A DNA stretch of 64,000 nt from assembly GCF_004210375.1 (NCBI RefSeq), contig NW_027467782.1, forward strand, positions 25,895,276 through 25,959,275, given 5' to 3'. This document shows positions 21,309 to 49,425 of this stretch, one piece after another (the stretch's first letter is position 1; each line of letters starts with the position of its first letter). Both the position numbers and the translations under genes were made by a program. The notes beneath the pieces were generated by a model, which saw only the letters and a list, made by a program, of their open reading frames with translations, had not been told where the DNA came from and searched no databases. This stretch comes from Tachypleus tridentatus. Its lineage: Eukaryota > Arthropoda > Merostomata > Xiphosura > Limulidae.

Positions 21309-21364
21309 TGACTGAACATTCAGAAAAGACTTTGAGAAAAATTTATCGTAATCTAGAATATTTG

Positions 21365-22435: not shown

Positions 22436-22439
22436 TATT

Positions 22440-23464: not shown

Positions 23465-23538
23465 TGTTGCAAACAGGCTCAATGTCGATGACTTTCATAT
23501 CAGTCATCAAACATGAGGTATACTGAGTGGGAGCTAGA
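23465..23538 (-). other. Exon-like segment (minus strand), weak
   Basis: The minus strand has TTTTTATAACAG before, and a donor-like GTAAGAG after, a 74-nt stretch open in one frame (LAPTQYTSCLMTDMKVIDIE...). Unit 2 carries the same with a Cys-to-Arg change. The protein is not recognised. Confidence 0.25.
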
Positions 23539-25036: not shown

Positions 25037-25129
25037 CTGTGAGGTAAAGACAGCAACTTGGTGGTTTCCCATGGCACCAGGAATGAGAAGTGTAAGATGT
25101 TTTTCTTCATGTAACATTGTATCAGATGA
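25037..25129 (-). other. Exon-like segment (minus strand)
   Basis: A 93-nt stretch between AG (upstream, plus 25130-25131) and GTATTACTT is open as 31 codons and reads TMLHEEKHLTLLIPGAMGNH and on to VAVFTSQ. The composition is globular-protein-like. In unit 2 the equivalent (46379-46468) has a 3-nt deletion that keeps the frame. Against it: the acceptor lacks a pyrimidine tract. The family is not recognised. Confidence 0.35.
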
Positions 25130-25848
25130 CTATCACCTTCTTCCATCAATTTTATTTTTTTTTTATCAATGAGGAATTTTCAATTTGTTGAAATGTGTAC
25201 ATTAATCAAGGTACCATAATACGTATATATATAAACCACATGAAAATGACTGGAAAATAAAACAAACGAAAGTCATCACACTAGATCTTCTGGGTATACA
25301 GGAGAATAAAAATTGGTAGGAGGCAAAATCCAGAGAAAAGGAAACTGCATAATTATATAAGTTATGGAAGCCAAATGTGTTACTTTTAGTTCACATACCA
25401 GTCTGTGAGATCGCCAAAGACAAACAACGAAAAGAGGCTGTGCTATGTTGAAACTGGCAGGAGATGCGAAAATGTCTATGGTCTGACTCACCCAAAGAAG
25501 AATATGCAAGATGGATCAGTTAGTGATCCTAAACAGTTAAAGCAGAAAAGGATAAATCAAGAGACCTCTCTAATGAAAAGAGTGATTCAGATATGATAAA
25601 GAAATGACAGGATAAGAATTAATTGATTGATTTAGTGTTTTATGGCACAAACATCCAGTAAAAAAGGTAAAAAAAATTATATGTAGTAAAATACATAAAA
25701 GGAAATGATGGTGAAACAAAACATCATTGAAAAACAGAAAAAACATAAAACCAATGTTGACACCTAGTCAACAATGTTGAGAGAGAGAGCAGAGTAAAAG
25801 AAGTTGTAAAGGACTTTCTTTAGCAAAATGGTAATGATCATAACCCGC

Positions 25849-26082
25849 CAGGAAGACTCACAGGTAAGTTCAAGAATCACTGTCAGTCATCTGAAGTTGG
25901 CCTTTTCAGTCCTGGTTCTGAGTTATGTGTCATTAAGGCCAGTACTAAAAGGTAAAGTAATAAAAGTGTTAAATGACATGTAGCAAAAATGTAATAACAA
26001 CTCCCCAGGACGACTAACGGGTAGTTCAAACAGCAGCGTTAGTCATCTGAAGTTGGCCTTTCCAGTCCTGGTGTCGAGTTAT
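25849..26082 (-). repeat. Direct repeats in Jockey 3' region
   Basis: Two copies, about 80 bp long and about 155 bp apart (25849-25928 and 26004-26082), share GTCATCTGAAGTTGGCCTTT, CAGTCCTGGT and GAGTTAT. Also in unit 2. Confidence 0.75.
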
Positions 26083-26238
26083 ATAATGCTCTGGCCATTT
26101 TACAATGTCAAATGGAACTAGAGAGGAGGAAACTGTAAAAGGGAACCACAATTAAAAAGGTGAAATGAAGAAATATTCAACACTTAAATGAGATTAAAAA
26201 GATTAATGGCCATTAAAAAACTAAAACTTTATCAACGT

Positions 26239-26270
26239 GGACAGTGTCACCATCACCAATAACACTGTCC
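26239..26270. repeat. Stem-loop in Jockey 3' region
   Basis: GGACAGTGT (26239-26247) and ACACTGTCC (26262-26270) form a perfect 9-bp stem with a 14-base loop. Also present in unit 2 at about 47577-47608. Possibly part of the LINE RNA 3' structure. Confidence 0.7.
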
Positions 26271-26303
26271 AATGTTACAGATAAACCCTATGAAAAAAAA
26301 TGT

Positions 26304-27146
26304 TTAAAATGGTGCCGTCGTTGAGAATCGTAACAGCAGCTGCTGTATAATACAGCCAGTTACCGCTGCCACATAGTCTTCTATTGATGGCTGATTCACG
26401 ATGGCAGGATCAAGTTCTGCGAGAGCAGTGAAAGTGGACCAGTCTGCCTGATCCAGCTTCCACCGGGGCACACGGGTAGAGTGGCATCCACCACGGCCAG
26501 TCTCTCTCAAAAGGATCGGAAAATGATCACTGCCTAGTGGATTACTGTCAACCCTCCATGAAAAATGGGAGAATAATGAAGGGGAGCAAACTGAGAGATC
26601 AATAGCAGTAAAGGACTGACTAGGTGCATGAACATAAGTGGAAGAACCAGTATTGAAAAGAGAAAGATTGTGATCAGAGAGCATACTCTCTATAGAACGA
26701 CCCCTCTTATCAATAACAGCACTTCCCCAGAGGGGATGATGTTCATTAAAGTCCCCCAGGATTAGAAATGGAGACGGTAACTGTTCAACGAGAGCATCAA
26801 GGTATGATTGATCATATGTCTCTCCAGGGGACAGGTAGAGAGAACAAACAGTGATGGTATGACCCAAGGAAACACGGATGGCTACGGCCTCCAAGGGTGT
26901 GTTGAATGACAAAGACAGGGTGGGCAGATGCTGATCAACCAACAGTGCCACCCCTCCATGTACTCGTCCATCACTCAGCCTAAAATTTCTGTACAGAGAA
27001 AACTGCCGAATGGTGAATGTATCAGCAGGTTTGAGAAATGTTTCTTGTAAGGAAAGACAAACAGGATGGTAGGAAGCAATAAGTGTTTTGATAACATCCA
27101 GATTAGAAGATAAACCTCGACAGTTCCATTGTATCAAGGTGGCCAT
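26304..27146 (-). CDS. Jockey ORF2 truncated to its endonuclease
   Basis: 280 codons from ATG at 27146. The AP-endonuclease-like fold is complete by motif: IQWNCRGLSSN at the N-terminus, LQETFL (metal-binding Glu), GGVALLVDQ, ILGDFNEHHPLWGS (catalytic Asp/Asn) and GSDHFPILL (catalytic Asp-His). After ELDPAIVNQPSIEDYV the protein ends at RFSTTAPF, and none of the RT motifs follow. It could encode a nicking endonuclease without polymerase; expression is unknown. In unit 2 (47640-48474) several one-base changes break the frame. It follows ORF1 as in Jockey elements. Confidence 0.8.
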   Translation of the reverse strand: MATLIQWNCRGLSSNLDVIKTLIASYHPVCLSLQETFLKPADTFTIRQFSLYRNFRLSDGRVHGGVALLVDQHLPTLSLSFNTPLEAVAIRVSLGHTITVCSLYLSPGETYDQSYLDALVEQLPSPFLILGDFNEHHPLWGSAVIDKRGRSIESMLSDHNLSLFNTGSSTYVHAPSQSFTAIDLSVCSPSLFSHFSWRVDSNPLGSDHFPILLRETGRGGCHSTRVPRWKLDQADWSTFTALAELDPAIVNQPSIEDYVAAVTGCIIQQLLLRFSTTAPF

Positions 27147-27188
27147 TTTTAATGACGTGTAGGTGAAATGGCTGGAGAACCCTTCTGT

Positions 27189-28395
27189 TTATGACCACGT
27201 CTTTTTTTCCTTACTGTCCTTAGTCAGAGGAGGTCTATCAACCTCTGTGGATCCTGCCCTGGGCCAAGTGGGCATGTCTTTGTTATTGGAAGGGGATTCC
27301 AGTGACTGAGGACGTGAACGAATGATTGTTTTGCCTCTTGGGGTGGAAGAAAAAGATGTATCAGAAGAAATGCCTGTATTTGAAACTGAAGGATGTGGAT
27401 CTTGAGCTTTGTTGGAATGTATGGGTGGAACAGAGACAGAGATGGGTGTTGAAGTCGATTCATCAACCTGTTTAACCATGGAGGTCAAAAGGATTTTCAT
27501 TGGCTTTGAAAACGATTCTTTTGGAGGCACAGAGAGATCTGTCTGCACTCCCACTGTAGTTGTGGAATGAAATGCAGCAGCATATGTCCGAGATAAAGTT
27601 GTGGGCAGCACTTTCGGAGCCTCGGGATAACTAATGTTGTGTGTTGTTTTCAAACCCTGCACCCATTTTTCCTCCAACCATTTTGAGCAAGAACGAAAGT
27701 AGGAAGGGTGAGAACCATTGCAGTTGACACAATGTGGGTCCATGTCACAGTCATAGGCATCGTGGTCCTTGCCACCACAACGACCACATGTCAGGGAACC
27801 ACGACATGATGTCTTTGAGTGGCCGAATCTCTGACATTGGAAACATTGGAGAGGGTTTGGAATGTATGGCCGTACCCTGCATATGAGATAACCTGCCTTG
27901 ATGGTGGCAGGTGCACGTGATGATGTAAATGTCAAAACGAGGGTATTTGTTGGCAGTGTATCTTCATCTTTGCGAGTGGAGATGCGCCTCACTGCAGAAA
28001 CTCCTTGAGTGGAGAGACCAGCGAGAATCTCTGATTCGGGGATGTTCTTCAAATTTCTCTCAACAATAATTCCTCGTGATGAATTCAAGGTAGCATGAGG
28101 GGTAACCTCAATCGGTACATCTCCAATTGCCTTTGAATTCAAGAGGAGTTCACTGTGTTGGGATATGGATGTTTCAACCAATATGTCTCCAGATCGAAGC
28201 TTCTTTATTGACTTTGGAGAGCCAGCAATTCCCTCTAGTCCCTTCTGAATAAAAAAGGGGACAATTGCCTAAAAGGTATTTCCGAAAGAGAATGTAATAT
28301 AAGAAACTGAGGTACGTGTGTTACAGATGTTGAAGATTGCTGTTCAGAGTCTTCAAGACGTGGTCGCTTACCTATTGACTGCTTTTCACTATTTT
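27189..28395 (-). pseudogene. Jockey ORF1 (Gag-like, three CCHC knuckles)
   Basis: RNA-binding protein of a Jockey-type LINE. The main frame (27189-28181, 330 codons) has IKAGYLICRVRPYIPNPLQC leading into three knuckles: CFQCQRFGHSKTSC, CGRCGGKDHDAYDC and CVNCNGSHPSYFRSC. The N-terminal part is in another frame (KRPRLEDSEQQSS... around 28370-28270); a one-base shift at the T6 run (28251-28256) joins it to FIQKGLEGI. An in-frame stop lies further upstream. A seventh T near 27205 shifts the C-terminus, so this copy ends KEKKTWS, while unit 2 reads on to a stop two bases before the ORF2 ATG, which is probably the ancestral arrangement. Confidence 0.85.
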
Positions 28396-28869
28396 ATTTA
28401 AGTTTTTAAAGGAGGATCCATAGGAAAAAGACAAATTTCGGAACCCACTGACCCCACCCACCATGGAGCCCTACGAGGGAATGCACTACAAAGTCATGCA
28501 AGGACAATGCAGCAACGCCAGGATTTTGTGAGGACTATACCCAAACACCAGCATCAGGCACAATGCCCACAACACCTGTTGAGAACTTCCAACACTGGTA
28601 TTTGGTTGACTCTAGCCCAAGTGGACCAGCCGATTGACCCAAGGGGTCACCCAAAGGCCGCCCATCTATAGGAATTCAAGGTCAAAGTGGTGTATTAGGG
28701 TTGGACCCCTCAACCACCAAGATCCACTCTTCCCCTTCACGGGTTGCCACGCACGGCAAACATGTGGGTGGATGTTTACATCCCAGAGAAGGTAACCAGA
28801 CAGAACAGAACCTTACCTGGGAGGTCCCTCACCACGCACAGGAATCCACACTGAGGGAACAGTATAAAA

Positions 28870-30520
28870 AACCAACTTTATGGAAACAACAAAAGACTAG
28901 AATAAAATCCATAGTAGAGACAGATTCTATAATTCCTTCTGTTAATAATAAAGATACAGAAGATCAGTGAGAAGTGGATAGAAAATAGAACAATAAGAAA
29001 GGTAAAGTATGAAAAAGAAGATTGAAATTATGAGATAGGACATACAAAGCCCCAGGTTGTTAGAGAAAAAGTAAACTGGGAGATGAAGTAAGAGAGGAAG
29101 GCACTGACAGGACCAAGACTGGGACTGGTTCCAAAGAAGAATAACCTCTGAAGTCTAAACCCTGGATTCCAAAGGATTAGGAGCAATCTCAAAAGACAGA
29201 ACTATAAAAACAATAGACAAGACAAAGCACCTAGATATAAGATGAAGGGATATGAACACCAAACTTAGGAAATACCATAAACAAATAAATCAGAACAAAG
29301 AGAGAAGGGGAAAAGTAAAACTAAAGTAACAAACCGATTTTAAACCATCTGTATACTAGGGAATAGAAGTATGGTTCAAAATATGTTTGGCAATGAAAAT
29401 AGTACAACCAATTGAAGTATCAACCTTCCTCAGATGATTCAGAGAAAGGTAACAGGCAGAGGTGGTAATAAAACATCGTGTGGTGGGCTGATCAGTGGAG
29501 ACAGCAACGTCAATCTATGACATACTGAACTCAGTCAGCTACACCTAAATATGAAGACTAAAAACAAGAATGGCAGACTGTATATTCCCAAAAAGTAGAG
29601 CCAGTGGAACCCAGTGTACAGACTCTGAACTGGAGAAGTGTGGAAAGACCCTGTTCAGGGCTGAAGTATCAGATGGTGAATAGCATACAGCATGTTCAAG
29701 GCCAAGGTCCTGAGAGAAACTTAGATAAAGAGACAAACAGTCCAGTTTTGAACAAAAAATCAATCTGCCTCATAACAGCTCCAAAATGTTCAGTGCCCTT
29801 GTTCACTTCGTATTTCAGTCGGTTGGATAAGTTTTACTACTGTGTATATTTCACAGTTATATCATTAGATAGGGTCAGAAAGACATTGTAAAGTAAAAGC
29901 AGCCAAATTGGAAATGTTTAGAAAACTGAGGCTGTGCAAAAATAAAAATTGTTATTGCATTTTCACAATCTGCAATTATTATGTACTTCCAACACTTGTT
30001 TCACTACTTTCATTACAGTTGGTGTTAGGGTATAGAAGATAAGAGAGCAAGTTTAAAGTTCTATGAAAAATAAAAAAAAATGATATTCATTTTGAAGGCA
30101 TAATGAGTAATGTAAATTAAACATAAAACCATTAGATGAACACAAGTAATTTTATTCTTAGCATAACAAATCACACTTTACACAGAATTACTTGACAGAG
30201 AATTCATAAATTAATGGATAAATGTTTTATGAAAGCAATTTACTCGAAATATAATTTCAGTTTGCAAAAGGAATGTAACGTTTAGATAAACATTTGCAAA
30301 AACTCATGATGATACACTTTGTATATTTAGAATATTTCAGTGGTTAATGTAATTTCATGTTTACATGGAGATTACAAAACTGGTCAGAATGACCAAGCAC
30401 ACATACAGGTTTAATAGAGTATAATCTAATTGACAATGGAATATGCATGTGGATCAGAATCAGTTGCCTAAATGTTTTAGTTTGAAGTACATTTTTTTAA
30501 AATTCTTTAGATACACTTAC
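28870..30520. other. Purine-rich interval, no gene called
   Basis: The plus strand is A- and G-rich. One plus frame gives K/E/S/Q-rich protein-like text between many stops (KTGTGSKEE, PLKSKPWIPK, VEPSVQTLNWRSVERP). The stop density is close to chance for this base composition, so it is not called. 30030-30480 is plain AT-rich DNA. Confidence 0.4.
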
Positions 30521-30613
30521 CATTTTGGAAACTTCTAGTAAGCCTAATTTTCTTTTCACTTTTGATAAAACACCACCAGTGACTTCATCAGGAAAACTGC
30601 TCTTGATTGGATG
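30521..30613 (-). other. Exon-like segment with good splice sites (minus strand)
   Basis: The minus strand shows TAATTTTTACAG, then 93 nt, then GTAAGTGTATC, a canonical donor. The 93 nt are open as 31 codons (HPIKSSFPDEVTGG, then LSKVKRKLGLLEVSKM). This is the best internal-exon candidate in the window. It lies in unique sequence between units 1 and 2. I do not recognise the protein; the segment has a basic K-rich half. Nearby exons of the same gene could not be joined to it. Confidence 0.5.
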
Positions 30614-31787
30614 CTGTAAAAATTACTTTTCATAAATGTACTTGCTACAGTTAATTTTAAACATGAGTGAGGAATAAAATCAGGGAGAATGTTTATAATA
30701 CATAATATGTAGTTTGTTTTTCAATGTTCCAAAACCAATCTTTTTGTTAAAATACAGTTTACTACTAATTATTTGGTATTGGATACTTTTGTATCAAGGT
30801 GGTTAATTACCTCAGACTCATTTCAGTTACATTCTTAACCATAATGTTGGCAAGTCTTTCTGCAATTTTACATCAAATCTTATTTCTTTATTGAAATTAT
30901 ATTGAAATAAATAAATTTTATAATCTTAAAATCCCTTTCTATGGGAAAAGATTGAGTATAGAAAATCTTAGTGATTTACATAAAAACATAATTAAAGAAA
31001 AAGTTATTAATTCAAATTCTGTTAAACATTTATGAAACAAAAAGTAACTTCTGAATTACAAGGTGACAAGTGCCTGAAGGATCAAACTACTTCATAAGAA
31101 AGATAATCAGTATATCTTGCTCTGATCCACCAAATACTTATGAAGTGGTGTACAACTTTGGTCTTCATAGACAAGAAGGAATGGTGATGTATAAAGGACT
31201 GTTCAGAGTGATGCAACTTAAACTGATTATCAAGTAAAAACGAGGAAGTTATCTTTATATTAAAGTCACTAGTTGGTCCTCGATTGTCTTCACTTGAAAT
31301 ATTGTGTGAGCTTTGTCTGAGTAATGACACTGATTTGTTGTAAATTGTTCACATTACAGCTACTAAAATTATTCCAGGGATGGAAAGGTTATATTAAGAT
31401 CTCTTTAGAAAAGATCAACAGACAAGGTTTTCAGTATGTTTAAGTGGGTGATACTAATGGATCAAGGAGATAATCCTGTCAGTGTACTATGTAGTGCTGG
31501 ATTGTGACTCTGCACCATATTTTATGCACAATATCTTAAGGAAGATCCAGAGGCATGCTCTCCAGAAATATTTAAAATAAGAAACACCATTCTCTCCATT
31601 TTCTGGTCTTTTTTAAAATAAGGGTATAAAAAATGATTAAATTTCCAATGAACATGTGATTTAGTAAGGTGTAAAACATCTTTTCATGAATGTAATAACT
31701 TTTTTCCTTCAGTAACATGAAGATGACTTTGAAGTAGGTAAAACTTTTTGTTAAATATAATTTTTTTGGGGAGTGAGTGGCGAAGAG
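30614..31787. other. AT-rich interval, no gene recognised
   Basis: An 82-codon minus frame (31082-31330; HNISSEDNRGPTSDFNIKI...) is the only longer one and has no support. No repeats seen. Confidence 0.45.
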
Positions 31788-31800
31788 ACTGATCACAATA

Positions 31801-32059
31801 GTCCAGGTGGTTAAGGCACTTGACTCGTAGGCGGAGGGTAGCAGGCTTGAATCTCGATCACACCCAATATGCTCGCTATTTCAGCCATAGGAACTTCATA
31901 ATGTAGCGCTTAATTGCACTATTAGTTGGTAAAAGAGTCGTCCAATAGTTGACGGTGAGTGATGTTGACTAGCTACCTTCCCATTTGCCTTACACTACTA
32001 AATTAGGGACGGCTAACGCAGATAGCCCTTGTGTAGCTTTGCATGAAATTCAAAATAAC
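31801..32059 (+). mobile_element. SINE-1 with 13-bp target duplication
   Basis: Plus-strand full-length copy: tRNA-like head GGTGGTTAAGGCACTTGACT (A box), GGCTTGAATCTCG (B box), then body and tail. Flanked by ACTGATCACAATA (31788-31800) and ACTGAACACAATA (32060-32072), one mismatch. Confidence 0.9.
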
Positions 32060-32212
32060 ACTGAACACAATATTCCAAATGTTTGCTCTTAAGTTATATA
32101 ATATACCTGCCAGGCGAGTTGTTTAAAGAATTTTCATAACAATAATTGTGATTATCTAACAAGTATTATTGTCAAACAATAATATTTTGCAATAAAATGG
32201 CATAATCTTTAG

Positions 32213-32279
32213 CCCTTGGTGAGCTCAGCAGATAGCCCAATGTGACTTTGCTATAAGAAAACACACACACAAACACATA
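32213..32279 (+). mobile_element. SINE-2 3' fragment
   Basis: GGTGAGCTCAGCAGATAGCC followed by CTTTGCTATAAGAAAACACAC and a CA-rich end, matching 21410-21470. Confidence 0.7.
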
Positions 32280-32783
32280 ATCTTAATATTTTTTCCATCT
32301 CATTTTAAATTTGTATATTTTGAATTAAAATCAAAGCTGTTTCCAAATTGAATTGTGGTTCTGTGGCATTACCACAAATTTTTCACCTTCTAGTTTCTGT
32401 ACTTTGTCAGCTTTAGGCATTTAATCGGAAACTTCTATAATACATTATTTGTCTGACATCTTTGTTGCTTCTAAGCATTGTAAAATCACGTGCTTACATT
32501 AAAAATATCAACAATGAATTAGTTTCTTAGCAACACAGAAATTAGGAAACTTTTATAACCTTAGTTACATAAAACATTTAAATTTTAGTGCAAATAGATA
32601 TAAAGTTATAGTGGAGATGAAATTATATTTACAAACATTTATTTTATCACACTCGGTGCTTTAATAACCGCATTGCCCGCACAAACAAGAGATAAACGTG
32701 AAGGTATTGAACTCAACGCCTTGAACAGCTTATTGTATTAAGTAGCTAATATCTATTACCGAGTATATCTTTCACTTTCGGAC

Positions 32784-32845
32784 GACTAATTTAGAGATGG
32801 CTCGCGCAGCCACCTCATGTAGCTTTGTGCGAAATTCAAAGAAAC
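32784..32845 (+). mobile_element. SINE-1 tail fragment
   Basis: CTAATTTAGAGATGGCTCGCG followed by CATGTAGCTTTGTGCGAAAT; only the last about 60 bp of the family. Confidence 0.65.
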
Positions 32846-33182
32846 AAATCTTTAATTTTGATCTAGGAAGATATCTTTATCTGTAGGATCAACGTGTCAA
32901 TGAGAAAGCAAAATTTGAGAATGAATAGAGCACTTTGTATTGTTCTCTCTCTTGGGTTTTGGGTATCATATGTACTCTGAAGGGTCAGGTGCTCTTTGAC
33001 CTCTTCCGCTGTTCTTTATTTATATGATCATGCAGTGTTGGTTGGTGTTAGTTCCTGCTTTAGAGTCAGAGTGGGCTGAATTTACTCCGACCCTTTTAAG
33101 ATCAATGTCCATGTACTGGTATACATATACAGATATTATTTTGCCTTGTCAGTAAGAAGTCTAGTTTGATGGTGGCCCTTTT

Positions 33183-34764
33183 TTAAATATATATTATTAT
33201 TTTATCTTTTTTTTCATTCATTTTTTTGTGTTTAAAATATGTGTTGATCGGGTAGAAGTGTTTAGGACTACCTTCATCATGTACGAGGTACCTCTCTAGT
33301 TCCATTAATAATTCATTTTTCATCCAATCTTTATCAAAATACTTTTTTGTACGATGTAAGAGTCTATTTGGTATGGTTGGTATGTTTAAATATTTGTGTA
33401 TGAATTTGAATGCTGCTTCTCTGGGAACTCTATATGCTGTTGTGAGGAGTGTGTTTTGAATTGTTTGCAACTTCATTTTAATTGTTTTGTCACTTACTAT
33501 GCTGGAGCTGCATAGTCACTTACTGGTCTGATGCATGTTTTGTATATTTTTCGTATATTGTCTGTTGATGCTACCACTATTCTTGCAAATAAGACTCCAA
33601 GCATAGCTGGTTCTTCGCCAGACTTTAATTTCGTTTACATGGTTAGTTTTGTGTCATAGGCTAGACTTAGAAATTTTGCCAATGTGGTAGGCAGAAATAA
33701 TGTTCCATTCACATATACTTCAGGCTGAAGTATTTTTTTGTATCTTGTCAACTATGTAAAGACGACAAGTTGCGTTTTTGCTGTATTTATTTTTATTTTG
33801 TATTTTCGACAATAATCGTTTTTATTCTGTTTAGTTTTTGTTGTATGTTTATGGCTGCTGTGGCACTTTTCCATACTGCCACATCATCAGCAAACTATGA
33901 GGAGAATCCATGCTTAGGATCCTTCAATGGCAAATTGTTTACATACATGATGAAGAGTATAGGGCTGACCACCCCTCCCTGAGGTACACCAGCTTCTGAA
34001 GTAAAGTACTCAGAAAAGGTTCCCTCTACATTTACTCCACATTTTCTATTTTTCAAAAAGGTAGATAACCAGCGAATAATTCCACGCGGTAGTCACATTT
34101 CCTTCACATGTAACTGTAGACCATTGTGCCATGCAGTATCAAATGCTTTCTCAATGTCAAGAAAGCAGGAGACAGTGCATTGGTTTTGTTAAAGCTGTCG
34201 ACTATCTCTTCAGTGAGTCTGACTAAGTGGTCAGTTGTTGTCTAAATTTTCTGAATACGTTTTGTTCTTCTGGTAACTTTCATGTTATCTCCAAGAATGT
34301 GGAGAGTCTGTTACTGACTATTCTCTCAAGAATTTTGCCTACACAGCTGATCAGGCTGATTGGTCGGTAGCCATTAGGTTTATCTGCTGGCCTTCATACC
34401 TTATGGAACATTAGTATATTAACATGCATCCAAGAAATTGGTATGTGTTCTGAGGACAGTGATAAGTTAAAAAGTGCTTTTTGGTGATCAAACAATTTCG
34501 GAGTGCCCTTTTTTGGGAGGATGGCTTGTATCTCATCTTCACCCGGAGATTTGTTTCTGTGTTTTTTATTGCTTCAAGAAGTTCATGTATGAATATTTCT
34601 TTCATTAGGATCGTGTCTTCATAGTTTATGATGTGTCTTGTATTTGCCTCAGATACACTTGTTAAGAAAAATTGGTTCAAATTGTTCTTTGTTGTTTAGT
34701 ATATAATTTGTGACTTTGTTGTAAAAATATGCATTTATATCCAGATCTGTATGCATTTTAAATG
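33183..34764 (-). pseudogene. Jockey-type reverse transcriptase, degenerate
   Basis: Minus strand, in shifting frames. From about 34764: linker with DLDINAYFYNKVTNYI; RT motifs KPNGYRPISLISCVGKILER (about 34380-34320), DIEKAFDTAWHNGLQ (about 34150-34110), SEAGVPQGGVVSPILFIMYV (about 34000) and FADDVAVW (about 33890, the catalytic pair). The C-terminal frame 33183-33476 reads LQTIQNTLLTTAYRVPR, LNIPTIPNRL and HRTKKYF, as in Jockey-group ends. Frameshifts and stops show it is dead. It is a different copy from the RT-less LINE at 25618-28850. Confidence 0.85.
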
Positions 34765-34787
34765 TATTCTGTGGTTGGTTCACTTAA

Positions 34788-35058
34788 TTTTGTTTGTTTT
34801 AAATTTCGCACAAAGCAACACGTGGACCTGCTGCACCAGCCGTCTTTAATTTAACAGTGTAAGACCAGAGGAATGGCAGTTAGTCATCACCATCCACCAC
34901 CAACTCTTGGGGTACGCTTTTACCAACGAATGTGGATTGACCGTCAAATTATAACAAACCCGCGACTAAAAGGTCGAGCGTGTTTGGTGTGATGAGGAAT
35001 CAAACTCGTGATCCTCAGATTACGAGTCGAGTGCCTTAAACACCTGGCTATGCTGGGC
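34788..35058 (-). mobile_element. SINE-1 copy
   Basis: Minus strand, complete but diverged: AAATTTCGCACAAAGCAAC tail, GGCAGTTAGTCATCACC body, CTCAGATTACGAGTCGAG head. Confidence 0.85.
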
Positions 35059-36311
35059 TATTTACAAAAAAAAGAATACTGAACAAAATTTGTGTAGATA
35101 TTATAATGTACATCAATTAATTGATAAGGAAGTGACTGAAAACAGAAAGGAAAAGAAAACCTCTAGAAAATTGTTAAACCTTCTCAAGTGTGAAAACATT
35201 TAAAACTTTGCTAAACTAGTTTAAACACCTGGCCATGCCGGGATCTGTTTACTCTCTCTTCTGTAAAAGATGATAAACTCAAGATTTTGTAAATAATTTT
35301 AAATTTTTTTATTCGGAATATCTTCTTTCAAACATTTCCAGTCACTTTATGTTTTCTCTTATTGTGAAAATGTGTTGTTCTTATAGCAAAGCAACAACAG
35401 GAAATCTCTCTGTCTACCAATGGGAAATCAAACGCTCGATTTTAGGATTGTAAATCCTAACTTATCATTAATTATGAATGTATTTTGAGTTGAAACCTAT
35501 TGTGATTTACAATACCACATATATATTTTAGGCTCATAACAAATTATTAACTACTTTTCTTCAGGAAAGCTTATAAATCAAAAATTCTGTTAGATATAAA
35601 CAAAGTTTAACAAATGTAGTTGATAGTTTATCTTTGCTCTGTACCTATTTAATAAAAGTATTTTATCGACTTCTAGAAGTTTGGTATAATAATATTAATG
35701 CCATATCAGTTCAAAACAACCCACCCTCGTTGCACAGCGATATGTCGGTAGACTTCAAGTGTTAGAAATCGAGTCTCGATATCCGTTATCCATGGTGGAC
35801 AGAGCACAAATAGCTCATTGTTTAGTTTTATGTTCATTTTGTAGGGTTGTATCGCTTCTCTGTCTTCATGAGTCATTAACTTTTGAAGTGGAGTCGTGCT
35901 TATCCTATTTACTAGTACAAATACCCAGCATACATATGATGTAAAATTTGAGGACTTAATTTATTATTTATAATTTATCAACATGTACTGGTCCCCTAGT
36001 AGAACTGGTATCAACAGAAACAAAAGTATGAGAAGAGCAATTCTCTCCCAAAGCAAACAACTTGGAAGCATGAAAAGTAGTGGAAAACTAAAACTCCTGA
36101 AATGGTGTGGAGTATGACAGACTAAAATAAAAAGTGTTGAAAAAAAAGAAAAACAGAGAGTCCAAATGTCTTCTCATTGATTACATTCTCACTTAGAAAC
36201 ATTGTTTTACTGAAAAGAAGAAGAAATCACTGGCAAAACCCATGAACCTAATTTCCTGAAAATTAAAGTCTGCATATAACGTTGAACTAAATTCTGGGAA
36301 TTCTTACCAGA
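35059..36311. other. Interval with SINE scraps, no gene
   Basis: 35220-35242 repeats a SINE-1 head end (ACACCTGGCCATGCCGGG). 35723-35835 is a SINE-3 copy. The rest is AT-rich with nothing recognised. Confidence 0.5.
35723..35835 (+). mobile_element. SINE-3 copy
   Basis: CCTCGTTGCACAGCGATATG, GTTAGAAATCGAGTCTCGAT and GGTGGACAGAGCACAAATAG follow the family order seen at 9631-9735. Confidence 0.68.
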
Positions 36312-36754
36312 AGCATGTTCAGCTATAATGGGAATTTCTATCGTCAATACACTGATCATATATTACTGCAGCAGTAATTTGGTTTATCAACATATTAGAT
36401 ACCCAGAGCTCTCATGATTGTGAACAAATGTTCTTAATGTAAGGCTCAGGGAAAAGAGGAAAAATATCAAAGACAGGAATTTTGTTTCTTTTGTTGTTGT
36501 GGTTTTATTTCTGAAAATATTTTTGACTATTTGAAAGCTGCAGGAATATTCTTCTATGACATCATATGTTTATTCTGGTTTATCAAGTGCAGTATGTAAT
36601 ACTTAACTGATTGAAATCCAAATTATTTATTAGATAAAAATTCATCTTGACCAAAAAATATAGAATTTAAACTTTTTATATTTGAAAAGAAAGATATAAA
36701 CCCTTAACAGAATTAGATTTATCTTCATTAATTTTCTACAAGGTACAACATACT

Positions 36755-37638
36755 AAGAAACCAAATAAACACAGCCATAAAACTATGCTCACCAGATAAA
36801 ATTAACGATGAATTAGACAAAATAAAACAATACTTCATCAACATAAGTTTCCTCCACAAACCGTAGAAAACATTATACGCAAACACCTAGACAGAAAGCA
36901 AAATCAACCAACTAAAGTAAATACAGCTCACGAATCTAAAAACCACGAAACCATATACTGCTGTATACCATATATTCCTGACATCAGCAAACAAATAACC
37001 AACATTTGACAAAAATTAGTAACAAAATATGACATTCCAGTTAATACCAAATTTATTCAAAACCAGGCACAAAACTGAGGTCTATACTATGTAAAACTAC
37101 ACTGACAAACACCACACCAACATTATTTATAAAATACAATGTGATAACTGCCACGACTTCTATATTGAGAAACAAGTAGAAAAATGGAAACCAGATTCAA
37201 AGAACATAAAAGTCACCTTCACACGTTTTCGAACACTGCAAGTCAAATAAACACAACATAACCATAGAAAACACTCAAATACTAAATAAAGAAACAAACA
37301 TAAACAAACGCAAAATTAAAGAAGCCTTACTTATACAACAACTTAAACCCAAAATAAACCAATATAAAGGAACGCCTTTATACCTATATTAATATAATAA
37401 AATAAATAAAATTATATATTCAAACATCTAATACCGCCCTCTACATTTCGACACACAGTTACACAACCCCTTTCAAACATGTGGTCAGCTTCCGGTCAGT
37501 TACCTCTTTCTTTGTGAACCTGACGATGACCGAAGAAGGTCGAAACGTTGTTCGCTCTTCTATGTAAAATATTTTCTCAACCCAAACGAGCCGTTTTGCA
37601 TATAAATTTCTCAACAAGTGGGTTTCTCGACATCACTG
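36755..37638 (+). mobile_element. Recombinant Penelope-like element (unit 2)
   Basis: Left flank and left junction equal fragment A (AACATACT then AAGAAACC); right flank and right end equal element B (32-bp tail, then ATGTCTGTATTTCA at 37639-37652). Diagnostic bases are A-type through 37535 (GAAGAAGG) and B-type from 37588 (CAAACGAG). The flanking duplications therefore do not match each other. The coding part is frameshifted like fragment A. Confidence 0.93.
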
Positions 37639-38487
37639 ATGTCTGTATTTCACCAGTAGGTGGCTGAAAGCAGGTAAAAAATTAAGATTGGCGCACTCGA
37701 AAATTTTGCAGAAGAAGGTGGTTCATCTTCTATTACTGATGAGTTTGTATCTCAAGCACTACCTATAATAACAACGTGGAAATGTCTAAAACTAATCTAT
37801 TAGAAGTTATAACAAATATGTTCTTCACAAACAGGACAACACTTCTAAAGCTTCTCACTCAACACAGAATCTCTTTATGTAACACCTCTAAAGAGCTGCT
37901 CTTGCTACACTAATCGATAAATGTGTAAATTTTACAAAACTGTCAATTTATCTTCTTGGTGACAATGGATAAACAACAGAGCCAACAAGTTACCTCCCAT
38001 CACACATCTCTGACCACAGGAGATGAACTAATCAGTTTCTTGTAACTGTAAAAGAGTTATAATCAAAATAGTTCATGTTCCAAAAAGTAATTACCAAGTT
38101 ACATTGTGTGTACAGAGTTTCTGGAGAAAGGTTTTAGAGTTTGAAGAAACCAACATATCTAAATCAGATGGAGATGATGAATAAAGTACAAAACTAAAGT
38201 TCATCCTAATCTGATAAACATTTCTATCGACACAGTTCATTCTTTTGGTTTGTGAATAGTTTTACTAGGTTTGAGTCTCTGATTATTTTCCTGACCTGCT
38301 TATATTGTTTAAATATTTATAATATTAATGCATAATATAAACTTATTTGTAAGTATTTAGCTTTAATATCAAAGGTATGACATAATGAAACCTCCATTTA
38401 AAATATTTTACAGAATCCCCATTAATTCATTTATTTTATCACGATATAATACATTTTGTAACTTACATGTTTTGTAAGGAACCTCAG

Positions 38488-38601
38488 GAAAGGAAAAATA
38501 GAGATAAGACGTCTACACTTGTGGTTCAAGAGCTGTTTGAAAAGTTAAATGTAGAACAACAGTGTATTGAAATTGATGAAGAGGAAGACATAAAAATGTA
38601 G
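38488..38601 (+). other. Exon-like acidic C-terminus, copy 2
   Basis: Open in the same frame as 16271-16384, same length (37 codons plus stop). The preceding TTCAG is CTCAG here. Confidence 0.28.
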
Positions 38602-39809
38602 AATATAAATTTAATAAAAATTAGGTTTAATAGAAATAGTAAAGATGTTAAAACTAACTAGATATAACTACTGGTGTGGGAAATATTGAATAATAACTTA
38701 AGTTGATCATTTTAAATAAATATATGAATTGTGAAGAACATTATGCAATTATAACAGTAGGAAGACAAACAATGATTTATAAACATAAAGAAATGTTTTA
38801 CTGATGATAGAAAATAGTGAACATAGGTCTTCTTGAAACATGTAATATGTTCCACCATGGATAAAACTATTGTTTTTGTGCTTATAATTAATTGTTCGCC
38901 TATCTATTATTTCAACAAATTTTGTAGAATTAAGAAATTTATTGTTTCAACAAGATTTGTGAATACTGGAAGTGAATAATGTAACTCTGGAAAAGCCATC
39001 TATACAGTTAAGAAGGATTTTGTAAGTCAATAATAATGTATTTTCGTATAACAAAGCCACATCAGGCTATTTACTCTTATAAATACGTAAACACGACGCT
39101 GTACCATCAGGGACAGAGTGAATAATAGACACATTCTTTACATTTTGGTTTACAGATATTATAAATCAATCTAGTGATAAACTGACAATGTCATAAATAA
39201 ATTTATTTGTTTTATACAAATTAGCAGAGAAAGTTCAAAATATGATGATAATTACATATATATTATGATTAAAACATAATTGGACTCTTAAGAAAATATA
39301 TCAGCACCTTAGATTAAATTATAAACATGAAACTGGTTGTGTGATGATATAAAACTGTAAATATATGATCATGTAGTTTTCACGTTTATGTACAGAAATA
39401 TATTTCTCATGTTTAATTTAAAGTATGAAACATTTTATTCCTTTAGGGTTCAGAAAGAGCACATAGAAACTTATTGTGTTGATTTTTCAAATAATTAGAA
39501 AAACTATGAAGAACTTGCGAGAAAATTGAAAATATTTACAGACAGTGATGACTGTGTCTTTACTATACCAAATGTACCTACACAGTCAGTATTAACTTTT
39601 ACCTTTACAGTGGAGTTACTCTGGATTTAATAATGTCTCGATATATAAATATTTAAAAAATGAAAATATTTACAGATAGTGGTGACTGTGACTCTACTAT
39701 ACCAAATGTACCTACATAGCTGGAACAATTACCAGTGTTAACATTTACCTCATACAGTGTAGTTAATCCATGATCTAATAATGTCTCCACATATAAATAA
39801 TAGAAACTG

Positions 39810-40660
39810 CGTTGTGAGGTGACTGTTAACCAACAATGTCTTAAGTAGGTTTGTGGATCTGTTGGAGCCTGCTATTATTTTCTTGAAGAAAAGAAAAGAT
39901 TCTATCCTCAAATGGGAAATGATGAATGGATGCAAGATCTAATGTTCCTTACTTGTATATTGATTCATCTACAAACTCTCAACTTGGCACTCTAGGGGAA
40001 GGATAAGATTGTTCCTGATCTTACTCAGACAATTTTCAGCTTTCAAATAAAATTAGACTTTTTCAAAGAGACATATTGTCAAGAAACTTTAGTTACTTTC
40101 CCAATCACAAAAGGAGAATAAATACATTATCTGATATTGAAATAAAAGATCACAAATTGGAAAAATATAAAGATAAATTACAAGAACTCCTTCATAATTT
40201 GCTAGATACGTTTGAGAACTTGTAGAAACTGAAGCCATGCTTCGCCTTTCTTGTAAATCCGTTCATCATTGATGTGGTCAATGATGATTGTCCAATTGTC
40301 GAACCTCTTGTTACAGAATCATCTGCTGTGGAAATGGAACTAATAAAAAATATAGGAGGACCTGGGTCTCAAGATGATCCATAAATCCCATTCTGCAACA
40401 GCGTTCTGGAAGCAAGTTCCAGAAATAAAATATCCTGAACAGAAAAACAAAATGTGCAACTCATCTCATTTTCAGCACAACATACTGCTGTGAATCACTG
40501 TACTCTGTAATAAAGTTTGTGAAGTCGAAGCATCGTGCAGTCCTCACAAATCAACACCTGACGGAGCTAATTCGTACAGACTTGACAACATACCAGCAGG
40601 TATTTCAACGATTCACAACCAAGATGGAAACTCACAAGACCTCTACTAGTAGTAAATAGC
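39810..40660 (+). pseudogene. hAT-type transposase remnant, copy 2
   Basis: Same remnant as at 17600-18450, with its own frame breaks (for example ACTCTAGGGGAAGG at about 39990). The preceding 135-bp dimer is also present. Confidence 0.7.
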
Positions 40661-41487
40661 CTGATAATTGTATCAATATCTGTTTGTGTTAGAAAAATAT
40701 TATGATAAGAATATAATTTTGTAAGGTGGTATCTGATTAAAATATCTCTAATTTTATTGTTTTGCATATTATTCTCCATGTTTTGACCAGATATTTACTA
40801 AAACAAATTAATATCATTAAAATATCTGTTTTACCCATTTTATTTTTTATTTTTGTCAGTTTCATTTAATGTTAATGAAATGCAAATTTGCATGTTTTTC
40901 ATAGATGTTTCCGTAGTTCATTACCGTATTAAAAACGCTCAATATAGTTAAATCAATAATCAGCCAGGATTTTGAAAATATTTGTTACATATATATATGT
41001 ACTTTATGATTATTGAAACTAATACAAACTAACAGTTTAAAATCTACATACATGAATAAATATTATTACGTACATTTATTTTTAATATTTATATAAAATT
41101 TATGTAACAAAATGTACATGTCACAATAAAACGTGTATGTAATATTTGTTCATGTCTTGCGGCTCTCAAACATCTGAAGTTTATCATATGTGGTTCTTAA
41201 CGTTAAACAAGTTTGGGCACTTCTGCACAAAAAACATAATCGGTTGCAGAGATTTGTCTATATTGAAACATACCGATGCCATAGTTAGCTTAAATTGTGT
41301 GATACTAACACGACTCTTTGTAAGAAAATGAATAAAATAGTCATTCTTGTATATACATAAATTGGAAGGAAAATTATTTACATTTGTGTTGAATAAAGTA
41401 AGTAATTATTAAAGAACTTGTAACAGACAGAAACTTTTTTACGGAATATAAGTCTAGTAATTGTGGAACCTTTTGAAAATGATCAAT

Positions 41488-41559
41488 TGGAGACGCCGGT
41501 ATCGATCCCGGTACCTCTCACATGCTAAGCGAGCGCTCTACCACTTGAGCTACGTACCC
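41488..41559 (-). pseudogene. tRNA-Ala pseudogene (unit 2)
   Basis: Equivalent of 19277-19349 but one base shorter: the T stem lost one C (CCGGG pairs with only CCGG). The 5' end reads GGGTACG, giving a mismatch in the acceptor stem. The anticodon loop is unchanged. Probably non-functional. Confidence 0.8.
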
Positions 41560-41818
41560 TATATCTAATATTTTAATAGTACAATACTTAATTACGATAA
41601 ATATCGAGATTTATTTTTGTTTTGTTTTAACGTTAAAATGTATTAGAATTTGATTAGCTAGAGGCACAAATGTATGTCAGCTAGTGCCGTCAGATTAGGC
41701 AACGCCTAGACAAGCCCTATTTTACATATAAGGTTTCTTCTGTATCGTTTCTTGGTTCACTTAGTACTATAAAAACTTTATAAAATATCTGGAATAATAA
41801 AATACGTATCTGTTTGTT

Positions 41819-42050
41819 GCGGGTTCGAGTCCCCGTCGTACCAAGCATGCTTGCCCTTTCAGCAGTGAGGGCGTTATAATGTGACGGTCAATTCCACTAT
41901 TCGTTGGTAAAAGTGTAGCCCAAGAGTGGGTGGTGGATTGTGATGACTAGTTGCCTTCCCTCTAGTCTTACACTGCTAAATTAAGGATGGCTAGCGCAGA
42001 TAGCCCTCATGTAACTTTGCGCGAAATTCAAAAATGAAAAACAAACAAAA
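41819..42050 (+). mobile_element. SINE-1, 5' part lost by deletion
   Basis: Begins at GCGGGTTCGAG, directly after the (TTTG) tail remnant of the opposite SINE, because the equivalent of 19610-20547 is deleted. The rest matches 20548-20781. Confidence 0.88.
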
Positions 42051-42116
42051 TATTACGTTAAAAGTAATAACCTGAAGGACATTTCTTTTAAAAGAAGTGC
42101 TTCAACTTTAATACCT

Positions 42117-42579
42117 TTGAATGGTATTTCAGTTGAACAGTTCATCATGGCAATAAGTGCGCTGTCAGATGCAAATATGAATATGGAGTTAAATGTATTA
42201 GATCTAGAACATAAAACGGTGTTACTTTGTACAGAAGGAATGACTTTTGAACAAATGGTAGACACAGTAGAATTGTTATACAAAGTTGGTAGTATACAAT
42301 CGATAGTTTAGAGACCTGAGAGGTATGAGATTTAGTGTAAGTATTCGTATGGAACATTTACACCTCAAATGTTTCCTATGCGCGATACCTTTTTATTTTT
42401 TCAAGAATTACAATTCAAACTACCTTAGAACGAAATGATAGTTCTGACGGGAGATTTCAATAGCATTTTGGAATTATGTTGGCTCATACAATCAATCAGA
42501 CTAATACGGGATCTATTGTATTAGTCTGATTGATTGTATGAGCTGACATAATTTAGTGGATGTGTGGATAAAATTCCAT
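42117..42579 (+). mobile_element. Tx1/L1-like LINE fragment, copy 2
   Basis: Same content as 20846-21308, including the 36-bp inverted repeat at 42468-42549 and the endonuclease pieces LTGDFN and LVDVWIKFHP. Confidence 0.6.
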
Positions 42580-45500
42580 CCCACTGACTGAACATTCAGA
42601 AAAGACTTTGAGAAAAATTTATCGTAATCTAGAATATTTGTCAAAATGAGTAAAGTTAACAACGCTAAAATCAGGAGTTCGATTCCCCTCGGTGGACTCA
42701 GCAGATAGCCCCATGTGGCTTTGCTATAAGAAAACACACACAATACACACAAGTAAAGATAAATTACCTCTGATGAGCAAACAGTCTGCTTTAGTGGAAA
42801 GTTTACTGTGAGATCTCATGTGGTGTCCTTTAAACGTCAAATTACCAAGCTTCTTATGCATATTATTCACAACAGATGAGACCTATATATTTCAATTTAT
42901 TTAATATTTCCTATTTTTGTCTGTTACACCAGAAATGTAGGATAAAATGACTCATTCTCTGGTGTTAAATGCTTAGAAAATTAAAGCAACAATTAGTGGG
43001 TGTAATTTCAACACTTATATATATATTACTTCTTGTGTCTTGTGTGCTTTGGACCGTATAATCAGTGAAGTGATGATTCAAAAAATGTTGTTGGATATAT
43101 TACTTTAAAAAGCCAATATGGACTTCACCGGTACACCTATGGATTATAAGAAGAAAACATTGGTATTCAGAATCACTTAAAATATCAATGAAATAAAAAG
43201 TTCATATTATTTTCATGAAATGTGTAGAGATAACAGTAGCAAGTAGAAATTTACGGAAATGGTTTACTTTCCTTGAGAAGAATACTTTGAACGACGTTTG
43301 GTTCCATTTCTATGTATTTTCATCAGGTTGAGATCTATTGTTATTTGCCGTTGACATCCTTGATTAGTAGTTTAATGTGGCTTTAAGGATGCAACCGCAG
43401 CATTAGATTTTAATGTGGCTTTTAAGGATGCAACCGCAGCATTAGATTATTGTTCTTAATCAGAATATTTAAAAAAATTAAAAAAGAAAAACGAAAACGT
43501 TCACAGCAGATTTTAGTGGGGTGTGGACTGAGCGACAGGTGTGGGTAAAATGTTTTGGGCAAACTTGGCATAGGCCGAAAATGGTCGAAGGGTCGTTCAG
43601 CTCATCAGTCGGGTTATTTCAGGGGTTTAGGCCACAACAGGTTTGTTCGGGAACCGAGTTTATGTTCGACAACTGAGACATTATTTTTCTCAAACAATAT
43701 GTTCGAAAACCGAATACTTCAGGAATGGAGTCATTCAAGAACCGAGATACCACTGTATTTGACTTCATTTTATATGTCATTATTCCATATTTTAAGTAAG
43801 TTATGGATTCCACGTGAACAAAATTCCTTTAATTTGGATTCAAAAAACAATCTTAAGTCAGTTTTGAGTTCCTCGTTTTAACAAACATTTTTTTCATTTT
43901 AGTAATGCCGTGAGGATCTTCAAATATGATAATCAGATGGAGCAATATCTAGTGAATAGGATCGATGAGGCACAACTTCCCATTTTAAGGCCTGAAGTTT
44001 TTCTTGGGTCATTTATGAAGTGTGTAGGATTCAAAACACAATCTTAAGTCGTGCAAAACATTAGTCTTCTATAATGATTAATGCAGTTCTTTTCCTTATC
44101 AGTTCTTGGTGTTAGCACTTCAACTGATGACAATATTTTTCAGCTGTGATTTGGATCCAAAATTTTGTGATAAACTGCACTTCCCAGATCTCACCAAACA
44201 CAAGGCAAAACTTTTTTTTTTTTAATATAAGTCATTCTTCGGTGTTGGTACAGGTGTGTAACAGAGATTCAACAATTGTCTCTTACATTGAGTATGCTCA
44301 TAAAAAAAAAACACTTCTCGTTGCCACTAACAATTCTTTCAAGAATTGGTTCATGAGCATTTCTTGTTTTCAAACATTAACAAATAGTGACTCCCTCAAC
44401 GTGTTAATTATCCGAAAACTAGTGTCCAAGTTTTGAAACTTTTCCAATTTCGTAGATGTAGGTAATGATTGTTACATGGAGCTGTTGAGCCATTTCTCAC
44501 AGTCAACTTTGGATTGCTTCAAATATTAAAATATTGACATTGAGAAAAGGCATAAATTTACGAGTTCTTTTCTTCAAACCGAATTACAACTTTTTGCATA
44601 AAAACGTTATTTACTTTCCTACCTAATATTCTCTGTGATAATTCTTTGTATCATTAAAGTTTTGTGCTCTGGTAGTCATCACTATGGACACATTTTTTGT
44701 GTGCGCAGTATCTCTAATGTGTTTCTTTAAGTATTTGTTATACACACATACACGTGCCATCACTGAACAATTCCCTCTTACTGTTGCAAACAGGCTCAAT
44801 GTCGATGACTTTCATATCAGTCATCAAACGTGAGGTATACTGAGTGGGAGCTAGACTGTTATAAAAACAAAGTAATTTTTCATATTTTACTTAGGTGCTT
44901 CACACACTTCTTTGTTTGTATACCCCCTCACTATAGAGTATGTAGGACAATTTTTTGGTCTGCATTTTAAGTTTATCCTACTGCTGGTTATGAAGATTAC
45001 TACTGCCAACTATACAGTTAAAATATTTAATGAAGATCACAACACTTTTTTACATTCTATATAAAATATAAAGGTCAGATCACATTTGTGAAATTGCCTA
45101 CTTTTAAGTAGAGGAAATTGATAAAGACAATGAATTTCATGGTATCATTAGTTTTTACAAAGTATATAATTGTTTACAAGTAACTTCTCTTAGGAATTAA
45201 AACCAACAATCCTATCACACACGTAAATGGAAGAACTCAATGAAAGTATTTATATTTAAAAGAGTATCTTAAATGTATGTTCTATTTATCCTGTATATTT
45301 CCATACATGTCCATTACAAATGTTTGGTACCTTCATTATTTTGTACCATTTACATTTTTGACAAGCAAGTACATCTGCATACTTTCTCTTTTATTACAGA
45401 AAAACATATTTCAAGGGACGTAATACTTTAGGTATAAACATTTCAAATGTAAAATATTTTTCGAAAACAAATCAGTATCATGAGAAAAAGTAAGAAAAAG

Positions 45501-46378
45501 AAAAAAACATTTGTCTTAGAAATCTTATATACAACATCATGCACACTATATTTCATCAGGAACACTATTTAACATAAGTATAGAAGGTATGAAATTTCTG
45601 CTTTTTAGAAACTTAAATTAGGTTCATGCTGAAGGATCTTCAAACAAACCTTCCAATTAACAGATGTTCCACAACCAATAGCAATTCAAATTGGCTTGAA
45701 ATAAATGTTTCCACTTTTATACTTGTATACTTATAGTGGATATAATTATCTTGATACTGTATGTCCTAAAACCAAATCAAATTCCTAAAACAAGAATTGT
45801 TGAACCCTTTACAAGTGAAATATATTTATCTGTAACTTGGTAATCACATTCAAAATTAATTTTCCTTAAACTTTTGTCCAGAATAAAACTTAGTTTGCGC
45901 AAACTACAATGACAAGAAATGTTATAATATTTTAACTCATTCTGGGATAGTTCAATAGTCAAGAGACAGGGTTAAAATCTCCCTTAGGTAAAATATTTTT
46001 CATATAGCTACTTACCTCTGCACCACTGAGAGCTATTCACTTACATACAACTATCACATGCCATCAACCTTGAACAAGCTCCCACGTGCATTGTAACAGC
46101 TTATGACAATCACACTGCTGTAGCCCTCAACCAATGGGAAGGTCACACAATCTCTATATAAGCACAAGTTTTCTCTTGACAAGGCAAAGAAAATTAACTG
46201 GATGTCAGAAAGATCAGGAAAGAATTGTCTGTTCTATTTGTTTTGTTTTATAAGAGTTCAGAATTGGCTATGTCAATTATATTCCCAGAAAACTTTCATT
46301 TCAACACTGGCCTCTTAGAAGGAGGAGATTGGTTTAATATTTTCCATTCTCCTATGCTCAATACAGATTTTTGTTAAG

Positions 46379-49078: not shown

Positions 49079-49311
49079 ATCATGGTTTGTAAAAATACAC
49101 AAAATTTTGAGAAGACAAATATTGTACTAAAGGTTATAATATTAAAACTATATACAAGTAAAAAAATGGTCCTTCTGTTGGTCTCTTTAACTGACACAGT
49201 ATAGAGAGTTAACTTTATTGACATTGCCTGCCCATCTGACCTAACTCGTAACCATTTGTAATTGTTATAGTTTACATACTAGTAACTTATAATATATTCA
49301 TTGTATCTTCT
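49079..49311. other. Unique spacer between units 2 and 3
   Basis: About 230 bp of AT-rich sequence with no match elsewhere in the window and no feature. Confidence 0.6.
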
Positions 49312-49425
49312 GTTTGTTTGTTTTTGGAATTTCGCACAAAGTTACTCGAGGGCTATCTGTGCTAGCCGTCCCTAATTTAGCAGTGTAAGACTAGAGGGAA
49401 GGCAGCTAGTCATCACCACCCACCG
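49312..49425 (-). mobile_element. SINE-1, tail half, left of insertion
   Basis: Starts with (TTTG)n and the family tail TTTCGCACAAAGTTACTCG and stops at CCACCCACCG (49416-49425), where a 454-bp insertion begins. The head half resumes at 49880. Confidence 0.88.

Follow-up and report, generated by a model that had tools for sequence, protein, structure and literature searches.

The window, the whole stretch of 64,000 nucleotides that was analysed (G000:C19:25895276-25959275), belongs to a genome of 2.17 Gb in 205 contigs. When it is compared with itself, three related units are found to make it up. Positions are given in window coordinates, in which zero, negative values and values above 64000 denote neighbouring sequence of the same contig; local positions on a second contig, C6, are contig positions minus 55,935,000. 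Copies in the window are named A_19 and B_19, those on C6 are A_6, U2_6 and U3_6, and Inv denotes an inverted copy that lies beyond the right end of the window. Unit 1 consists of a left flank (L), Penelope-like element A, a middle segment (M), element B and a right flank (R). Unit 2 has the order L, a single element, R, and in unit 3 the right part of M is joined directly to R. The features needed below are as follows.

433–1294, + strand: element A (A_19), a 5′-truncated, tail-less Penelope-like fragment, with the same junctions in A_6 on C6
1295–1302, + strand: AACATACT straight after the end of A, a probable right target-site copy that also equals the left end of the element
1303–13881, + strand: segment M, which separates A from B in unit 1 and is missing in unit 2
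13882–13895, + strand: left target-site copy of B, ATGTCTGTATTTCA
13896–15421, + strand: element B (B_19), a truncated Penelope-like element with an inverted terminal repeat copy at 13896–14278
14874–15173: GIY-YIG endonuclease of B
15390–15421: tail of B, 32 bp
15422–15435, + strand: right target-site copy of B
36312–36746, + strand: left flank common to element A and the hybrid, collinear leftward to 29332, which matches −7022
36747–37638, + strand: hybrid Penelope element of unit 2, with an A-type left part and a B-type tail
37607–37638, + strand: B-type tail of 32 bp, missing in A
37639–37652, + strand: right flank of B, starting with ATGTCTGTATTTCA
52281–52294, + strand: empty B site in unit 3, with one copy of the 14-mer and M joined to R

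In the window and its neighbouring sequence, homology between units 1 and 2 starts at −7022 and 29332, respectively, which gives a period of 36354 bp. Window positions 1–1295 match 36312–37606 at 98.7%, and 14524–19611 match 36746–41818 at 98.0%. Between these two matching blocks, unit 2 lacks approximately 14.1 kb of unit 1 at the Penelope element, and the two direct Penelope copies of unit 1 lie 14093 bp apart in register. Within segment M, 784 of the 12579 bases have any match in unit 2, all of them at places occupied by dispersed SINE-like repeats. The loss of this segment from unit 2, which the initial annotation had attributed to recombination between Penelope copies, is indeed accounted for by such an event.

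The single element of unit 2 is a hybrid. Compared with A, it shows 1 substitution in 431 bases of left flank and 3 in 777 bases of the element up to 37535. Compared with B, it shows 15 in 780 bases of the element up to 37535, none in the 50 bases of the tail piece and 8 in 1263 bases of right flank. The 32-bp tail follows GCATATAAA in both B and the hybrid and is lacking in A and in the inverted terminal copy of B. Within the window, ATGTCTGTATTTCA is found at 13882, 15422, 37639 and 52281 only. No target duplication borders the hybrid itself, and kilobases of collinear flank surround it on both sides. Judged from these alignments, chance is excluded for the flanks, whose shared kilobases carry the case for a recombinant. 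An earlier claim, namely that in the hybrid the left flank comes from A and the tail and right flank come from B, is thus borne out by the collinear flanks, the substitution counts and the position of ATGTCTGTATTTCA at 37639. With one flank from each parent and the intervening segment lost, the locus has the structure of an NAHR deletion. The stretch shared by A and B is 96% identical, and the in-register joining of an A-type left part to a B-type right part within it is the expected product of homologous recombination between direct repeats. We consider the hybrid to be best explained by homologous (ectopic) recombination between two Penelope copies in direct orientation, with a probability of about 0.86.

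The direction of this change is indicated by the sites that lack B. In addition to the empty site in unit 3, a counterpart on C6 (local 86832–86845) joins M to R with a single 14-bp overlap. The 14-bp target duplication and these two empty sites show that B is a clean insertion into the M–R junction. Because the empty sites join M to R, the order L–element–R must be derived, and these two sites rule out unit 2 as the ancestral state. The corresponding history, in which one insertion between L and R gave the hybrid arrangement and a 14-kb segment was inserted later to produce unit 1, would explain why A and the hybrid have an identical left junction and why the hybrid lacks a target duplication of its own. 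It is nevertheless extremely improbable, given that M runs precisely into R at both empty B sites, that B is bordered by the 14-bp duplication and that A stops at the same tail-less end as the inverted terminal copy of B and is then followed by AACATACT.

The target sequences on the two sides of the hybrid differ in what they can tell. The left edge of element A is ambiguous, at about 432–441, because its 5′ junction shares AACATACT with the element. This 8-mer occurs at 433, 1295 and 36747, at six further places on the + strand of the window and at one on the − strand. At the left-end position of the element, which was read in plus-strand family copies only (n = 14), AACATACT is present in 12 copies and AGCATACT in the other 2; B is the odd one, reading AATATACT. 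The initial annotation had taken the left target sequence of fragment A to be present in the hybrid. The 8-mer is there, but it is no pure target sequence, as those 12 family copies carry it as well. The left AACATACT therefore belongs equally to the element and to the target, and it is weak evidence of recombination, because Penelope sequence of this family carries it at that position. The right AACATACT, which follows the tail-less end of A, suggests that A has a target duplication and that this falls on a microhomology at the 5′ junction. Neither the window nor the C6 stretch nor the neighbouring C19 sequence contains the strings expected of an empty A site. The mismatch between target sequences is therefore weak evidence on the left side of the hybrid and good evidence on the right.

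A second copy of the hybrid is found on C6. There, a locus (L002) that is collinear with window positions 35249–39151 at 99.2% holds the hybrid and both of its flanks, and the collinear block around it spans 27498 to 45624 in window coordinates. The two hybrids, U2_19 and U2_6, have in common a 4-bp deletion at 36842 and a T at 36937. In the right flank, 21 sites unite them (3 in block R1 and 18 in R2), and in the left flank 8 sites support the pairing and 1 contradicts it; block R3 (20545–24306) hardly resolves the hybrids, with 3 versus 2 sites. The two hybrids are sisters in L and in two of the three R blocks. They diverge from each other by 0.16–0.95%, and their private substitutions in L number 20 in U2_6 and 6 in U2_19. 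Because the shared substitutions lie in both flanks, these comparisons make a single ancestral recombination, before the two places separated, the most likely history. The A and B copies of the window are therefore stand-ins and not necessarily the parents. Ectopic recombination between two Penelope copies about 14 kb apart, as initially proposed, stands as a process, but the visible copies at 441 and 13896 need not be the actual partners.

The second hybrid also bears on the quality of the assembly. Penelope is a high-copy element (3167 first-look candidates, of which 40 were scored), and such elements are a usual cause of misjoins, so an assembler might have wrongly joined two Penelope copies to create the hybrid. 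We regard such a chimera as very improbable, as the same junction with both flanks occurs on two contigs that carry distinct private substitutions, and the window contains no N, with units 1, 2 and 3 lying in one gap-free stretch. A possibility to be taken more seriously, although we think it somewhat less likely than not, is that the recombination is real and that unit 2, together with the C6 block and the inverted copy right of the window, consists in part of alternative haplotypes that were falsely duplicated, which would make the hybrid an allelic deletion and not a tandem paralog. The C6 block begins immediately past a 500-N gap, as does the inverted C19 block past another, and a gap that separates the members of a duplicated pair within one scaffold is described as a mark of false duplication (PMC9516828). 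Moreover, the C6 block is collinear with window positions 27498–61424 except for a 20.4-kb extra stretch, and the divergence between the hybrids is plausible for alleles. Against this, units 1–3 lie together in the gap-free stretch, and the three states observed (A–M–B–R, the hybrid and the empty B site) exceed the two alleles of a single unit. Haplotype duplication would turn the hybrid into an allele and would leave the recombination itself unaffected.

The position of the switch from A-type to B-type sequence was examined in a three-way table of A, B and the hybrid, with A_6, U2_6, Inv, 28 family copies and 8 B-like copies as the comparison set besides the window copies. Both samples are biased: the 28 family copies come from the top matches to the hybrid (40 of 3167 candidates were scored), and the 8 B-like copies were taken from 42 matches (40 of 3056 candidates were scored). 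Three features of the hybrid are central to this comparison.

36882, + strand: derived base A (from C) in both A copies and both hybrids; C in B, 28/28 family copies and 8/8 B-like copies
36894–36918, + strand: subfamily block, in which the hybrids and A copies have G and AACTAAAGT, and B and 4/8 B-like copies have A and lack those 9 bases
37536–37606, + strand: preferred crossover interval of 71 bp, from the last difference of the hybrid from both B terminal repeats (37535) to the end of A/B homology

Up to 37535, the table contains 19 A-like events, of which the one at 36754 arises from the alignment edge, and 4 that are B-like; in 2 more the hybrid alone differs, and in another 2 all three sequences differ. 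The B-like events lie at 36781, 36846, 37016 and 37168. Past 37535 the only substitution is B-like (37588); two homopolymer indels, one A-like and one private, lie at 37593, and the event at 37604 is an edge artefact. A single switch fits these events best, and shifting it to the end of the homology costs at most one mismatch more. When A_6 and the 28 family copies are considered, the variants at 36781, 36846, 37168 and 37588 prove to be private to A_19. The description of the hybrid as A-type up to 37535 accordingly holds for most events and fails as a uniform rule. Three of the four B-like events reflect private bases of A_19; at the fourth, 37016, both A copies differ from both hybrids.

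The switch had originally been placed within 53 bp (37535–37588), with 37588 as the B-type marker on its right. At 37588, G is found in A_6, both hybrids, both B terminal repeats, Inv, 8/8 B-like copies and 27/28 family copies (the remaining one has T), so that 35/36 other copies and A_6 carry the base of the hybrid, and C is found only in A_19. The 53-bp interval was therefore dropped, its right-hand base being a mutation confined to A_19; tabulation of the diagnostic sites removes 37588 as a marker, and where the best-fitting single switch lies depends on the polarity of the private bases of B. The right limit of the crossover then becomes the end of A/B homology, at 37606. Crossover intervals derived from three copies can mislead in just this way, when a base taken as diagnostic on the right turns out to have mutated in one of the parent copies alone.

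The left limit depends on the history of B. Differences that B does not hold alone, at 36882 and in the block 36894–36918, group the left part of the hybrid with A. The one-base markers at 37166 and 37207, which B and 8/8 B-like copies carry and which both hybrids and 28/28 family copies lack, prolong the non-B sequence to 37207; A_6 has the B-like letter at both. Farther right, the B_19 bases at 37415 and 37535 do not differ between the two terminal repeats of B and are seen in 0/36 other copies. The B_19 base at 37316 is likewise seen in 0/36 other copies and is not found in the inverted terminal copy of B; both 37238 and 37316 differ between the two terminal repeats. Altogether B_19 has 11 private substitutions in approximately 890 bp, compared with 1.6 expected from the unit 1 flanks (24 in 13026 aligned bases), and none of these bases occurs in the 8 B-like or 28 family copies. 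This excess over the flank rate suggests that the bases probably arrived with the element at its insertion, which would place the crossover within 37536–37606. We prefer this 71-bp interval on the condition that the private bases of B_19, on which it rests, were present when B was inserted; otherwise the comparison would limit the crossover only to 37208–37606, approximately 400 bp.

That second outcome corresponds to a history with the same recombination, in which the inserted B had family bases and B_19 acquired its private bases later, together with exchange between its inverted terminal repeats, so that the crossover could lie anywhere in 37208–37606. We consider this tentative and the less probable course. 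Consistent with it, the 11 private bases are found in 0/8 B-like and 0/28 family copies, and Inv, which has the R flank, the tail and, on its left, a part of M, carries family bases at 37316, 37415 and 37535. The excess of private substitutions argues in the opposite direction, since most of them seem to be element-borne, as does the identity of 37415 and 37535 in both B terminal repeats while 37238 and 37316 differ. If later mutation is accepted, the crossover could lie even further left when the one-base indel markers at 37166 and 37207 are set aside.

The flanks show that the units have a more complex past than one insertion and one deletion. The right flank of B in unit 1 (15422–16686) differs from the empty C6 copy (local 86832–88096) at 1 of 1265 positions and from the hybrids at 8 of 1263 and 6 of 1262, though the hybrids share the B insertion and the empty C6 copy does not. 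Mixed splits are found along R. Exchange among the units after the B insertion is the likeliest source of the discordant R flanks, and the near-identity of the right flank of B to the C6 copy is likely to reflect recent exchange among units. Taken together, the discordance of the R flank, site 37016, the B-like letters of A_6 at 37166 and 37207 and the near-silent block R3 speak against a simple history. Inv retains R, the tail and some 400 bp from the end of the element, bordered on the left by a piece of M, and may descend from B by a deletion or from the hybrid. An inverted, internally deleted copy of −13947 to 30637 lies at 65777–94000 on C19, to the right of the window, and is mostly 98–99% identical; this block may form a large palindrome with the window or else be a haplotype contig placed wrongly.

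These observations suggest the following course for the preferred recombination between direct repeats. The ancestral unit would have carried element A on the left and element B on the right, as direct repeats approximately 14.1 kb apart. Homologous recombination between them, whether by unequal crossing over, intrachromatid crossover or single-strand annealing, would have retained, on the A side, the left flank with the left part of the element and, on the B side, the tail with the right flank, and deleted everything between. The switch would have occurred within 37536–37606 by preference, or within 37208–37606 if the limits are drawn conservatively. The hybrid unit would later have been copied or inherited into the two assembled places, unit 2 on C19 and a contig placed on C6.

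A more active part for the element can be imagined in this course, although we think it unlikely. The resident tail might be a preferred break site, at which a Penelope endonuclease cuts an old copy, so that annealing repair with a neighbour gives hybrids whose crossovers crowd beside the tail. This idea depends on the preferred interval, which would place the switch at the very 3′ end of the homology, beside the tail of B. In Drosophila virilis, the tail is needed for recognition and cleavage by the Penelope endonuclease, the exact cut being undefined in that account (PMC11167929). If the idea is correct, Penelope would delete DNA by re-cutting its own old copies, beyond just supplying homology; a crowding of crossovers beside the tail in many such hybrids would implicate the endonuclease.

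Deletions by recombination between transposable elements are well known and routine, and the hybrid is an ordinary repeat-driven deletion of this kind. Chimeric transposons at Drosophila inversion breakpoints carry exchanged target duplications. The Galileo chimeras found there (DAIBAM) resemble the present hybrid in that copies of one element recombined ectopically; they differ in that inverted Galileo repeats give an inversion, whereas the direct repeats here gave a deletion. As in NAHR deletions between Alu or L1 elements, two direct copies recombine, one hybrid is left and the interval is lost, but here the element is Penelope-like, the deletion is ~14.1 kb and the hybrid lies within a multi-copy segmental duplication. 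In one Korean genome, 131 NAHR Alu recombination-mediated deletions are reported, with a mean homologous stretch of 43 bp and a largest deletion of 13,698 bp (PMC8102501), and ectopic recombination between transposable elements has been termed prevalent in the virilis phylad (PMC6278893). Among the titles and abstract openings listed by a literature search, no published Penelope–Penelope hybrid was found, which is no proof of absence. The locus offers a well-documented Penelope-mediated deletion, with empty sites, two hybrid descendants and polarity from the family copies.

Several features identify the elements as Penelope-like. A reverse transcriptase with a YVDD-type motif is present in the family, as RVT_1 (PF00078) matches open reading frames of the copies L008 and L003 at 2.4e-11 and 2.2e-12, respectively. 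The internal part of B begins at the VDD motif of the reverse transcriptase (TVDD in B itself), and its open reading frame gave no reverse transcriptase match in the domain search. At 14874–15173, GIY-YIG (PF01541) is matched at 3.6e-5 and 24.4 bits, compared with a cut-off of 22.6; the longer open reading frame 14673–15173 gave no domain match, and PDB searches found none. A terminal repeat (pLTR) is represented by the inverted 383-bp terminal copy in B, whose subfamily is common to the genomic copies L048, L049, L053 and L054. The tail is present in B and the hybrids, absent from either A copy and covered in 23/28 family and 6/8 B-like copies. Penelope-like elements have an optional tail of 30–40 bp that corresponds to the stretch between two RT start sites (PMC11167929). 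The elements thus share with Poseidon of Anolis and Penelope of D. virilis the reverse transcriptase and GIY-YIG domains, the pLTRs and the optional 30–40-bp tail (PMC11167929); they differ in that A, B and the hybrid are truncated and known from sequence alone, and in that their hammerhead-like motif has no Rfam match. The core of this motif, CTGACGA..GAAA, occurs in all four terminal repeats of the window (37519–37549, 1207, 13954 and 15300). Fold z values are −2.8 and −2.9 for two short stretches and −0.6 for a 77-nt stretch, and a hammerhead was matched in Rfam neither in 37200–37700 at E ≤ 1, a lax threshold, nor in a search of the whole window. A protein scan and pattern search of viral contigs, a pattern search of genome contigs and a blastn search of plasmids led nowhere.

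The units differ in further respects away from the Penelope elements. Unit 2 also lacks ~0.93 kb at 19612–20544 (unit 2 position 41816–41818), a part of a foldback-like structure that is present in units 1 and 3 and has inverted SINE-like arms (19606–19843 and 20540–20778) and an inner palindrome (19888–20231). Members of a dispersed SINE-like family, which we take to resemble chelicerate (horseshoe crab) SINEs, lie at 7881–8062, 8177–8398, 11363–11615, 19606–19885, 34788–35058 and 49304–49433, and the homology breakpoints 11475, 19611 and 20545 fall inside such copies. The homology between units 2 and 1 ends (27763 versus 49086) within an open reading frame at 27189–28268 that adjoins a LINE-like endonuclease open reading frame (PF14529), presumably of Jockey. 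On C6, this place is followed by 20.4 kb (L, A and M) that are missing from the window. In unit 3, ~109 bp of the other units (16687–16795) are replaced by a short stretch (53544–53564) that reads as the reverse complement of the adjoining CCATCTATACAGTTAAGAAGG, like a template-switch microinversion.
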